Shown in pieces: positions 51,673 through 55,615 of a stretch of DNA of 64,000 nucleotides. How positions within the stretch are numbered: position 1 is the first letter of the stretch; each line of letters opens with the position of its first letter. Below the pieces are notes generated by a model that did not search any database, was not told the DNA's origin, and saw nothing but the letters and a program-made list of their open reading frames with translations. This stretch comes from an uncultured Marinicella sp. (lineage in GTDB: Bacteria; Pseudomonadota; Gammaproteobacteria; Xanthomonadales; Marinicellaceae). Location of the stretch: the NCBI GenBank assembly GCA_947502595.1, contig CANNAM010000005.1, positions 1-64,000 on the forward strand. The letters are read 5' to 3'. The position numbers and the translations under genes are program-made.

Positions 51673-53166
51673 TTATTCAAAATCAGTGACGAAAATGATG
51701 TCGTTCAAGCCCAGACAGTTGACCACCACAGCCACTGTGGCCGTAGACCCACCATTCAAGCTGTAGGTGAAGTCATCGGTAACCACGGCATTGTTACAGT
51801 AATTCGTAACTGGGGTGTACTCAACATGCATGCCATCTAAACCCACCACCACCGAGCCATCGTTGGGTTGTGTTACCGATTCAACATACTGGTCACCCAA
51901 GCCATCATCGGTGTCATTAACCATCACATCCAAAACATTATCAACACTGTTTTCGTCAACACTGACGGCATCTGCCACCGCCAATGGAGCCTGGTCTATA
52001 CCCCAGTTACCCACTGGGTAAAAAGTAGGACCACCGGTTTTACACAGCATACCTTGATTGGCTTTGTCCCACACCGCGGTACGGTACCAAAACACCACAT
52101 TTTCATCGACCAATGACTCAGGCACGCCTGGGTTGGCACTGCTGCCAACCAACTTTCCTTCGTCCATAGAACAATTACCAAGGCTATTTTGCCCAGGTGT
52201 ATCAGAGTATTCGGTCAAAGTACCGTTGACTAATTTATATTTGGTGGCCATCACATCCACCATATGAAAACCTCTGCCACTGGGATCAGCGGTTAAAGCA
52301 TACTCATCAACCAAACCCAATTGAGAATCGCCTTCGGAATCAGGCACCACACGATAACCTCGACCTGTGACACTGTCTTTCACCACCCATGAACGATTCC
52401 TCAATGGCACTGGTGTGCCTTGAACGGGTTGTTCATGACGCCAGTCGGAAAACTCATCCACTTGCAGTGTTGAGGCTTGGCCATCATCAATGTAAATTTC
52501 ATCGTTATTAGGGCCGTCTATATCAAAGTTGACGCGCCAGTATCCAGTGTGCCAATGATTGATGCCGTTAGAATTGCCTGAACTGTTACCAAATCCAAAT
52601 CTGGGTTGGATGCGTCCATCGGCATGAAATATATACCGTGCAGTGTACTTATACCATGCAGCAGAATGGTTGGTGGTTAACACCATATGATCGTCGTATT
52701 TTTCTACTTGCACACCCGTGATGCAATCGGCGCTGTTGCCCACTTGACCCGAACCATTGGGGTCATTGAATGGACAATTGTTAACAACTTCATTGGGTTC
52801 GGTCGAGGCATCACAAGTGGTGATGGCTGCGCGAGAGGGGTTTTCTACTTGGTCGGCCTGTAAAAATTCAGAATTGGTGTTTTTCCAATCCCGGTAACAG
52901 GTGCTGGTTTCATAAGAAGCAAATAACATCGGTACATGGATGCGCTCTAAAGCCAGAAAGCCATTAAAATGTATGTTCCTTATTTCCAGACTAGAACCGT
53001 CTTCAGCAGAACTGTCCGCCACATTGAGGTAACACATTTCCCAAACAGGGTCAACAGTGGGCCATCCCACGTAATTTTCACCGGCTTGGCTACAGCTTGG
53101 GGATGCCGCCCAAGCAGGATTGATTCCTATAGACAGCATAAGTACTGTTGTGATTATTATTTTCAT
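51673..53166 (-). CDS. Exported copper amine oxidase-like catalytic domain with altered active site
   Basis: 497 residues. A signal peptide (cut near PAWA) precedes a domain of about 370 residues that follows the copper amine oxidase catalytic fold by motif order. The order is LEIRNIHFNGFLALERIHVPM (about 60-80), WYKYTARYIFHADG (171-184), HWH (204-206) with a following NFDIDGPNN, and VVFWYRTAVW (357-366). Tyr172 aligns with the cofactor tyrosine, but the consensus Asn-Tyr-Asp/Glu reads Trp-Tyr-Lys. The HxH copper pair is kept, while the third ligand position, 161 residues on, is Asp367. A cadherin-like domain (about 395-485) follows, and the C-terminus is DIIFVTDFE. It overlaps the previous gene by 4 bases. 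Homology is my motif-level reading. Confidence 0.6.
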   Translation of the reverse strand: MKIIITTVLMLSIGINPAWAASPSCSQAGENYVGWPTVDPVWEMCYLNVADSSAEDGSSLEIRNIHFNGFLALERIHVPMLFASYETSTCYRDWKNTNSEFLQADQVENPSRAAITTCDASTEPNEVVNNCPFNDPNGSGQVGNSADCITGVQVEKYDDHMVLTTNHSAAWYKYTARYIFHADGRIQPRFGFGNSSGNSNGINHWHTGYWRVNFDIDGPNNDEIYIDDGQASTLQVDEFSDWRHEQPVQGTPVPLRNRSWVVKDSVTGRGYRVVPDSEGDSQLGLVDEYALTADPSGRGFHMVDVMATKYKLVNGTLTEYSDTPGQNSLGNCSMDEGKLVGSSANPGVPESLVDENVVFWYRTAVWDKANQGMLCKTGGPTFYPVGNWGIDQAPLAVADAVSVDENSVDNVLDVMVNDTDDGLGDQYVESVTQPNDGSVVVGLDGMHVEYTPVTNYCNNAVVTDDFTYSLNGGSTATVAVVVNCLGLNDIIFVTDFE

Positions 53167-53756
53167 TGTTTTACCTCTTTTTTTGTATAGATGCCATCGA
53201 AATCCGGGTAAGGGATGGTTCGGTCGCTCAATTTAACGATGGCATGTGCCACCATACTTTTGCTGTCGGTATGCGCGAACACATGCACACAACGCCGGTT
53301 TTTATTGCCCTGATAACACACACCATCGGCATGCTGATCTGCATAACCAAAACCACCGTATAAATGTATAAGGGCTTGCTCACTGGCCAACACTTGATTG
53401 ATCTCAGGGTGGGCTTTGAACAATTCAAAAGCCAACAACAGCTCTTCCCTGGACACCATGCCACCACTTTGGGCATTGTAAACCTCACTGACCAATTGCA
53501 TGTCAGGGGTGTAAGTGCGCAGAAACCCTTGTTGTTTTTGGTAGTTATAACCCATCTGGTACACATATGAGGCTTGCCCCTCATCGGTATACACCACATC
53601 ACGCCATTCGCTGGCAGTGATTTCTAACCAATTACCTTGGTCATCTTCAGTGACGTTAAGTGCAGGGGCGGATAAATCCTGGTTACGGATTGGCGCATAC
53701 TCCACTGCCTGGGCTGTAGTGCCAATCAGTAACATGATTAAAGCTGTTATTTTCAT
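53163..53756 (-). CDS. Small exported protein resembling the N-terminal domains of copper amine oxidases
   Basis: 197 residues with a signal peptide (MKITALIMLLIGTTAQA). The second half (SREELLLAFELFKAHPEINQVL, then GGFGY and RRCVHVFAHTDSKSMVAHAIVKLSDRTI) recalls the N2/N3 segment of copper amine oxidases. In that segment a helix with 'ADPRVQ'-like spacing leads to RRLxxxLxFVR and a strand naming the substrate channel. The size, about 180 mature residues, equals those two domains. Its 4-base overlap with the catalytic-domain-like gene suggests a split enzyme whose two parts are exported separately. The similarity is weak and unverified; otherwise the function is unknown. Confidence 0.5.
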   Translation of the reverse strand: MKITALIMLLIGTTAQAVEYAPIRNQDLSAPALNVTEDDQGNWLEITASEWRDVVYTDEGQASYVYQMGYNYQKQQGFLRTYTPDMQLVSEVYNAQSGGMVSREELLLAFELFKAHPEINQVLASEQALIHLYGGFGYADQHADGVCYQGNKNRRCVHVFAHTDSKSMVAHAIVKLSDRTIPYPDFDGIYTKKEVKQ

Positions 53757-55615
53757 CGATTAATATTAAATTGATTGTAACTCATGACCATGTCCACCGG
53801 CTCTGACTTGCCGTTGTCCTGCCACAGTTGTTGCATGAATGCCCCTCTGGACTGATTGGCTGGACCAACTGTCCAGTTGCGGTCACACATCAGATTTTCA
53901 GTGGGTATGTTGTTTGCCGTCGATTCAGCATCGAGGAATTCAATGTACTCTTTACTGGCTGTCTGGTATTTCAATTTGGCTTGTACGGTCACTGGCATCA
54001 TGGCACCAGTGATGGGTATGGTGTAACGAGTGACATCGTAGTTGACCAGTTGCTCAGGGTTTTGTGGACTGGCAGGGTAGCTGATACCGCGGGGCATGAT
54101 TTCGATGTCATCACCACCACGAAAACCCAATGGTGGAATGCGGTTGTCTTTCAGGATGCAGTTATTCAACACAAAGTGGAACATTTTTTTATCGGCGCCG
54201 TCTTTGATTTCACAGGTCGAAGTATTGCTGTTCCAAATCCCTTGTTGTGATTCGTAGATTTTAACCTGAGCATCTTCTGTCAACACGGCCGTTTGGCTGT
54301 CATAAGCGCCGGACTCAAATATTTGATTCATTGGACTGACACCATCAAAAGCCACCACATTCAACCACATGCGTCGACCTTCAGGGTAGCCAGTAGGTAA
54401 TTTATGACCGGTTAGGTTGGTCACTTTCACATCCACCACCAGTTCATTACCATCATTGGACACCAGTTCCACATCAATGCTGGCGCTGTTAAGCTGCAGC
54501 ATATTTTCAGCATAGCCAGTGGTCAAGTCCAACAACTCTTTGATGCCCTCATCCACCGACTCTAAATCATCACCATATACGGCTTTAATTACTTGCGGAA
54601 TCCACGTGTTGCCACCAGCAAACTGATGTGTAGATAACTGCTCTTGTCTTGAACCTGGAGGATTGAACACACAGGCTCTGGCAGCCATGCTGTCACTCTT
54701 TGGCATATGACAGCCTTGACAAGTTTCACCTTGGCTTAAGTATGGAACCTCGCCATTACCGCTCATATCCATACCATCACGGTAAATCAAATCTGCAAAC
54801 AGGGAATTTTTCCACTCCGAATATGTGCGCTCAATGGGCATCGCAATGTTTGTCTCTTGGCCATTGTGCCAAAACTTTCTGGCGATACTCAAGACCCCAT
54901 TTTGTTCAATTTCAGGTGAAGATACATCATGGCAACTGCCACAAAATTCACCTTTTTGGATGAACGATGAATACGCCCACTCATGTGGTGGCGGGCCCAC
55001 ATCACCACCGGTTGGATACTGGTAGGGACCTTTGCGGCATGGGCCAAAGCCACCACCCTCACAAACTTCATCATCCAACCAAATATTGGTGTTACCGATC
55101 ATATGTGGTTCATTGTTAGGCCCCAATTCATCCACCCGATGACAAAAATGACAGGTTACCCCAGTGTAGTCATTGTTTTCAGTGCTGCGTTGGATGGGAT
55201 CACCAAACAGCTCACAACCATTGGCGCCATCCACTGGAGGCAACTGTGGATCTATTGGTTTAACCACGTGTCCATTGAACCAGCCTTGGGGGGTGTGGCA
55301 TTTCAAACAAAATTCGCCCACCCCAGGGATGTCATTATTGGCCACATCCAACGCCGCCCAAAACAGCGGGTCTCGCGTGGCTTGGGCTTTCATTGATCCA
55401 GCCCACGTGGTATATGGCATAAAATGCTTGTCTTCTTCGTAATCAGTGGTGCCGTAATACCCAGCGTGACAGCTGTGACATTTAGCGCCGCCTTCCAACG
55501 AAAAAGTCAAACCTGGCTGTGAACCATGTGGGGTGAAATCGATGTTGCTACCAGCAACACCATTAAAAGCAAGTATTAGGAATGGGATTATAAAAATTAG
55601 ATTGAATCGACTCAT
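53753..55615 (-). CDS. Exported pentaheme cytochrome c
   Basis: 620 residues with a signal peptide (cut near GVAGS). Five CxxCH heme sites begin at Cys46, Cys103, Cys155, Cys225 and Cys299. They are followed by a beta-rich C-terminal part of about 300 residues, starting near GHKLPTGYPEGRRMW, a segment common in multiheme cytochromes. All hemes lie in the N-terminal half. It probably moves electrons in the periplasm or at the cell surface. It is the first gene of a three-gene operon (4-base overlaps) with the two amine-oxidase-like proteins, so it may be the electron acceptor for them; that is inference. Confidence 0.85.
   Translation of the reverse strand: MSRFNLIFIIPFLILAFNGVAGSNIDFTPHGSQPGLTFSLEGGAKCHSCHAGYYGTTDYEEDKHFMPYTTWAGSMKAQATRDPLFWAALDVANNDIPGVGEFCLKCHTPQGWFNGHVVKPIDPQLPPVDGANGCELFGDPIQRSTENNDYTGVTCHFCHRVDELGPNNEPHMIGNTNIWLDDEVCEGGGFGPCRKGPYQYPTGGDVGPPPHEWAYSSFIQKGEFCGSCHDVSSPEIEQNGVLSIARKFWHNGQETNIAMPIERTYSEWKNSLFADLIYRDGMDMSGNGEVPYLSQGETCQGCHMPKSDSMAARACVFNPPGSRQEQLSTHQFAGGNTWIPQVIKAVYGDDLESVDEGIKELLDLTTGYAENMLQLNSASIDVELVSNDGNELVVDVKVTNLTGHKLPTGYPEGRRMWLNVVAFDGVSPMNQIFESGAYDSQTAVLTEDAQVKIYESQQGIWNSNTSTCEIKDGADKKMFHFVLNNCILKDNRIPPLGFRGGDDIEIMPRGISYPASPQNPEQLVNYDVTRYTIPITGAMMPVTVQAKLKYQTASKEYIEFLDAESTANNIPTENLMCDRNWTVGPANQSRGAFMQQLWQDNGKSEPVDMVMSYNQFNINR

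Follow-up and report, generated by a model that had tools for sequence, protein, structure and literature searches.

The 64,000-nucleotide window analysed here (positions 1 to 64,000 of contig CANNAM010000005.1, assembly GCA_947502595.1, from an uncultured Marinicella sp.) carries on its minus strand three open reading frames (ORFs), designated C, B and A, two of which appear to encode a protein like copper amine oxidase (CuAO), divided between separate polypeptides. C (53753..55615) encodes an exported pentaheme c-type cytochrome of 620 amino acids with CXXCH motifs at residues 46, 103, 155, 225 and 299. B (53163..53756) encodes an exported protein of 197 amino acids whose predicted fold is that of CuAO domains D2-D3 (N2/N3), and A (51673..53166) an exported protein of 497 amino acids in which a CuAO-like catalytic domain (residues 24-390, 51997..53097) is followed by a Big_9 Ig-like domain (51718..51993) and a C-terminal tail, 'IFVTDFE' (51676..51696). 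Inspection by eye shows what appears to be a Sec signal peptide at the N-terminus of each protein, and the frames overlap by 4 bases at both the C/B and the B/A junction, so the three exported, overlapping ORFs and five-heme cytochrome reported in the first-pass annotation are confirmed. Pfam places Big_9 at residues 392-483 of A (E 2.9e-8), a domain that the first-pass annotation did not name and that is missing from shorter A relatives, which stop before it. Cu_amine_oxid (PF01179) is matched at residues 197-223 below threshold (E 0.0034, 16.8 bits versus a cut-off of 27), and a PF01179 search of the organism's own genome gave no match at E<=0.001. No NCBIfam model matched A, no Pfam family matched B, and C matched Pfam cytochrome families, Cytochrome_C7 best. 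Among named relatives, Marinicella meishanensis is the closest found, with 70% identity in the best segment of A.

The excerpted text of PMC3382800 describes CuAO as one chain of about 70-80 kDa that contains D2-D4 and forms a homodimer, with two small alpha/beta domains, D2 and D3, of some 100 residues apiece and a large D4. It describes an O2-linked enzyme in which copper is held by three strictly conserved histidines, the catalytic base is an invariant Asp, and the sequence around the cofactor Tyr is fixed. In domain size B corresponds to D2-D3 and A to D4, and structure prediction agrees with both assignments. An AlphaFold2 model of A residues 24-390, built from 18 homologues (alignment A1) that are 45-78% identical to the window protein, has pLDDT 78 and pTM 0.85. 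Foldseek comparison with the PDB gave 94 matches at E<=1e-3, the best 50 of which are all CuAO (top E 2.1e-12). Profile comparison points the same way: hhalign pairs A with four canonical CuAO at 95.6% probability (E 1.1e-8) and with seven short CuAO-like proteins at 98.7% (E 4.3e-16, 173 columns), and all 12 PDB matches of the A profile are CuAO, yet each has an E of just 1.3-2.2. Predicted structure and hhalign thus both give A the antiparallel beta-sandwich catalytic fold of D4, and we regard this assignment as secure.

For B, an AlphaFold2 model from 16 homologues (alignment A2) has pLDDT 88 and pTM 0.81. Of the 50 Foldseek matches listed, 24 are CuAO structures, the first 17 rows among them; probability is 1.00 for rows 1-16, and the best E is 2.4e-3, none of those listed falling below 1e-3. 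Among the rows for E. coli CuAO, 11 of 15 superpose at 3.8-4.3 Å over 135-139 columns and the other four at 7.3-7.9 Å. The two small domains are therefore predicted to reside in a separate protein, B, whose fold resembles CuAO D2-D3. The first-pass annotation had proposed a split CuAO-like pair and had named an unrelated fold as the outcome that would count against it; the models of both A and B match CuAO.

The division between B and A is a stable property of the family. B lies directly upstream of all 40 full-length A genes scanned in the fetched regions (39 distinct, in 35 genomes, since L021 is the L070 genome). The two genes are present in the same 24 of 61 genomes (the organism's own and 60 relatives), and their presence agrees in 61/61 when a short A remnant in genome G056 is counted as absent. 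For this count A was scored as present where a match began close to the N-terminus and extended to residue 379 or beyond (25 rows, 24 genomes), and Big_9-only matches and the G056 remnant (query residues 317-390) were dropped. No ORF contained both domains among 46 A-match ORFs (40 full-length, 6 short CuAO-like) and 40 B-match ORFs. CuAO is a single chain, whereas A and B are two polypeptides, and a frameshift or assembly break as the source of the split is ruled out, since B and A are separate genes in many genomes and no joint frame exists. The pairing of A with B is obligate, a conclusion we consider secure.

The catalytic residues were located by MAFFT alignment of the A family with canonical CuAO and short CuAO-like proteins. 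Tyr172 (52651..52653) falls on the Tyr precursor of topaquinone (TPQ), within Trp-Tyr-Lys-Tyr, with the invariant Trp171 before it in place of Asn. His204-Trp-His206 (52549..52557) falls on the HxH copper ligands, and Asp367 (52066..52068) on the third copper His, a position that is Asp in 32/32 rows of the A alignment, two of which (L023 and L030) seem to come from one genome. Tyr85 (52912..52914) is invariant and aligns with the conserved Tyr of the CuAO VPY motif, which we take to be Tyr284 of AGAO. The candidate catalytic base is Asp93 (52888..52890), a motif-level guess; MAFFT aligns residue 96 instead. Invariant positions number 57 overall and include Y85, D93, W171, Y172, Y174, H204, H206, H301, E319 and D367 in 32/32 rows. 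The residue calls of the first-pass annotation (Tyr172 in Trp-Tyr-Lys, His204/His206 and Asp367) thus hold for the window protein, and Trp171, Tyr172, the HxH pair and Asp367 are kept throughout the family. A shares with CuAO (PF01179; E. coli, Arthrobacter globiformis, Hansenula) the D4 fold, the HxH pair, the TPQ-position Tyr and the VPY Tyr, and B has the predicted fold of CuAO D2-D3. The A-B system differs from CuAO in having two chains, Asp for the third His, a Trp-Tyr-x motif, a cytochrome in the gene cluster and a Pfam score below cut-off. The spacing from Tyr to the first His is also different, at 32 residues in A versus 55 in the canonical CuAO of locus L059 (Y442, H497). A-B is not classed as CuAO because the single chain, the three His and the TPQ consensus are all lacking.

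The third gene of the cluster is less tightly bound to the other two. In 34 of the 40 cases C immediately precedes B-A, and in four more (L079, L085, L101, L105) the B-A pair follows another such pair. For the other two A genes no C is visible upstream: at L107 the contig ends, and at L104 a five-heme ORF lies downstream instead. This gene order is maintained across families. The first-pass annotation would have been contradicted by genes that are never adjacent; B adjoins A in 40/40 loci, and C stands next to the pair in 34/40. C (E<=1e-190) is present in 39 of the 61 genomes, including all 24 with B-A. All five CXXCH motifs occur in 42 of the 43 C relatives used for a tree, the remaining one being truncated by a locus edge. 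Across the class, C relatives were found in 13 of 143 genomes, own included, and no A, B or D (a protein encoded near many B-A loci, described below) was found in 10 regions around them. Five such neighbourhoods (L124-L128) were read, and nine proteins from four of them were run through Pfam. In one (L126, 5329-8793) a 1154-aa ORF fuses a glucose/sorbosone dehydrogenase (GSDH-type), an F5/8 domain and a C-family pentaheme cytochrome, and in another (L125) the C relative adjoins a multicopper oxidase; no redox partner was identified in the others read.

A comparable arrangement occurs in another gammaproteobacterial order. A PF01179 survey of 143 genomes of the class found four with a match, one of which has tandem short CuAO-like genes, and this short family is present in 27 of 63 genomes of that order. 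We scanned 18 loci from 17 genomes (the first genome, which gave two loci, and 16 of the other 26). In 17 of the 18 (L094 and L152-L167) a single strand encodes, in order, a protein of 218-239 aa, a degenerate catalytic domain, a C-terminally extended catalytic domain and a MauG-like diheme cytochrome; L093 is without the MauG-like gene, and L162 and L163 have two extended catalytic domains. The L094 diheme cytochrome matches PF03150 (E 1.9e-42), and those of the other loci were found by similarity to it. The 40 catalytic domains comprise 21 with HxH, called intact by that mark, and 19 without. The 21 all retain Tyr, the third His, the base Asp and the VPY Tyr, with Asn changed to Ala (19) or Ser (2); among the 19, Tyr is gone in 16 and the base Asp in 19, and the third His is retained in 13. 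This pattern looks like a pair of active and inactive subunits. For the upstream protein, hhalign gives 51% against CuAO (E 1.5e-4) and 3.7% against B; a profile search of the PDB found no CuAO, but 43 ADP-ribosylation-factor-type matches (best E 0.0018), which we take as chance. Its assignment to D2-D3 is tentative and comes from sequence comparison. The second array (L093-L094, L152-L167) resembles A-B in its catalytic domain of about 390 aa, its separate upstream protein and its heme protein in the cluster (17/18 loci). It differs in having three His, Ala or Ser in place of Asn, an extra degenerate subunit and a MauG-like diheme instead of a pentaheme partner.

Taken together, these observations suggest that A and B constitute an exported heteromeric redox enzyme with a metal and a tyrosine, perhaps a quinone, at its active site, which may pass electrons to heme; we assign this whole chain of steps a probability of roughly 0.45. 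The two exported subunits would associate to rebuild the D2-D3-D4 body of CuAO. In A, His204, His206 and Asp367 would together coordinate a single metal ion, a variant of the CuAO site of the 2-His-1-carboxylate kind that is suggested by the alignment and by the invariance of these residues. Tyr172, beside the metal, would be redox-active, whether as a tyrosyl group or after conversion into a quinone. The substrate of the heteromer, most likely an amine, would be oxidised in the periplasm or outside the cell. In genomes with B-A the electrons would then go to heme, with cytochrome C as the nearest candidate acceptor. Gene order supports C in this role, as do the heme protein of the second array and the dehydrogenase and oxidase that accompany two cytochromes related to C. 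It is the weakest step of the proposal, because C is also conserved without the enzyme. Quinohemoprotein and tryptophan tryptophylquinone (TTQ) amine dehydrogenases have folds unrelated to CuAO, and what they would share with A-B is the idea alone, of a protein-derived cofactor that delivers electrons to a c-type cytochrome.

Several results weigh against this reading, and they concern all three proteins. The sequence homology of B on its own is weak: hhalign gives 8% (E 0.0042) against CuAO and 0.5% against a degenerate one-chain CuAO relative, the single sequence of B finds three chance-level matches in the PDB, and its profile finds none there. The homology of B is therefore argued from its predicted structure together with its gene position. 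In A the third copper His has become Asp in 32/32 rows with H204 and H206 retained, and of the TPQ consensus Asn-Tyr-Asp/Glu the Tyr remains, with Asn replaced by Trp in 32/32 and Asp/Glu by K, Y, F, Q, M or L. The base is ambiguous, since the MAFFT column holds 13 D and 5 N of 18 and the invariant Asp93 lies 3 residues away. Mean pLDDT over ten-residue blocks is 82 at Tyr172 and 85 at HxH, and is low (69) at Asp367, whose role as a metal ligand we infer from alignment and invariance. C occurs without B-A in 15 of the 61 genomes, some of them fragmented drafts (in G014 the C gene is at a contig end), and in three (G005, G012, G017) it is flanked by the same two genes as in the window but B-A is absent. 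Long branches in the tree of C had hinted that it evolves faster where the pair is missing, but a comparison with three neighbour genes, made in 13 genomes of the genus, shows no acceleration: the median ratios of C to neighbour-gene distance are 1.10 for 15 pairs both with B-A, 0.96 for 42 mixed pairs and 0.86 for 21 pairs both without, the pairs being non-independent and one neighbour gene being truncated in three genomes.

In G031, C without B-A lies in the gene neighbourhood that surrounds the cluster in G021, but on the far side of one flanking gene, so this is no clean deletion, and in G056 the short A remnant stands behind C with nothing more of A. When each of the 43 C proteins in the tree is labelled by whether its genome has B-A, a minimum of 7 label changes is needed (starred branches force 6 of them), compared with an average of about 12.7 for shuffled labels. 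This count does not separate gain from loss, and it carries some noise because most second C copies from genomes with the pair also bear the 'plus' label. C as an obligate partner of B-A is rejected on the strength of the 15 genomes without the pair. Since C persists without B-A, it presumably also serves something else, and with its flanks retained and its evolution no faster it is not merely a partner of A-B. The cytochrome seems to have a role of its own, with B-A as an accessory module next to it. The pairing with a pentaheme cytochrome put forward in the first-pass annotation is borne out as gene order, but the tie is looser than suggested there.

An ordinary O2-dependent amine oxidase, in which Asp is tolerated as the third ligand, topaquinone forms and the cytochrome is merely co-transcribed, would accommodate the retention of Tyr172, Tyr85 and HxH and the independent existence of C. 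We consider it unlikely, given that the TPQ Asn is Trp and the third His is Asp, each in 32/32, and that the order with C is preserved across families. It is also doubtful that A-B lacks catalytic activity and serves, once exported, in binding or adhesion on the CuAO scaffold, with a metal site that is structural or metal-sequestering, as its signal peptides and Big_9 domain might imply. The Big_9 domain and the 'IFxxGFE'-type tail of A speak for such a function, as does the occurrence of degenerate CuAO domains in another order. Those degenerate domains, however, have lost the Tyr (16/19), the base (19/19) and, by the definition used, HxH (19/19); there Tyr, HxH and base decay jointly, whereas the active-site columns of A are retained as a set, Tyr and HxH being invariant.

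Heme proteins stand beside both arrays, one of them MauG-like, and MauG matures TTQ. A-B might by analogy mature or modify C, or C might mature a tyrosine-derived cofactor in A, instead of electrons passing between them. This we judge very improbable, as C is conserved without A-B and lies outside the MauG family, with five hemes rather than two and a match to CCP_MauG (PF03150) at just E 3. A broader proposal goes beyond the heteromeric redox enzyme favoured here, namely that A-B represents a new class of cytochrome-linked oxidoreductases, in which a CuAO fold is cut into D2-D3 and D4, a 2-His-1-Asp site lies by a Trp-Tyr redox pair, and electrons go to a multiheme cytochrome and not to O2; the fold may even have been divided on two occasions within gammaproteobacteria, both times next to c-type heme proteins. 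We regard this as rather unlikely. No paper on a split or cytochrome-linked CuAO was found by title or abstract start in the open-licence PMC literature, with subscription papers and preprints lying outside that search; the excerpted part of PMC12058724 deals with sequences from plants and animals.

A was found in 40 of 398 genomes of the window's order, one being the G056 remnant, and in 3 of 398 genomes taken phylum-wide, own included, all three from the window's order. A peptide-pattern scan of the genome collection gave four loci, three of which are A genes and one (L024) Big_9 alone. A one-chain CuAO relative of 594 aa at L095 6334-8118 (L069) seems, read by eye, to have lost its HxH pair. 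Outside the window's family, 18 of 23 loci have a gene for protein D (about 600 aa) within the fetched stretch, in some cases at a distance of about 2 kb. D is encoded in L079, L080 and L082-L088, among others, and elsewhere in the organism's own genome at C1:73532-75217 (L092 7467-9254). It is present in the fetched stretch in none of 12 distinct loci of the window's family and has relatives in 52 of 61 genomes; it is not regarded as a component of the system. Three D members matched no Pfam family, no PDB match was found, and NCBIfam gave one chance-level match in 1 of 14 members; invariant histidines occur in its 'DQHP' and 'KHA' motifs. C-terminal tails of the 'IFxxGFE' type, similar to that of the window's A, are common to A relatives and some D proteins (L079, L080, L088, L092) and are perhaps a sorting or secretion tag.

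C itself contains a stretch, TGHKLPTGYPEGRR, with a weak match to the ExtKL and MccSep cytochromes. The likeness to both ExtKL (NF040886; 24.9 bits, cut-off 250) and MccSep (PDB 9wt8; E 0.031 against the C profile) is confined to this 'vTNltGHklPtGyPegRR' region. Within it, Tyr410 of C ('GHKLPTGYP') occupies the selenocysteine position of the multiheme selenoprotein MccSep.

Routine annotation would overlook A, because its Pfam score is below cut-off and it matches no NCBIfam model. Related species that have C and are without B-A offer natural comparisons for the contribution of the pair. A conserved family with a 2-His-1-Asp site and a Trp-Tyr motif would test which features of CuAO its chemistry needs, and whether the fold can be put to use as a dehydrogenase.

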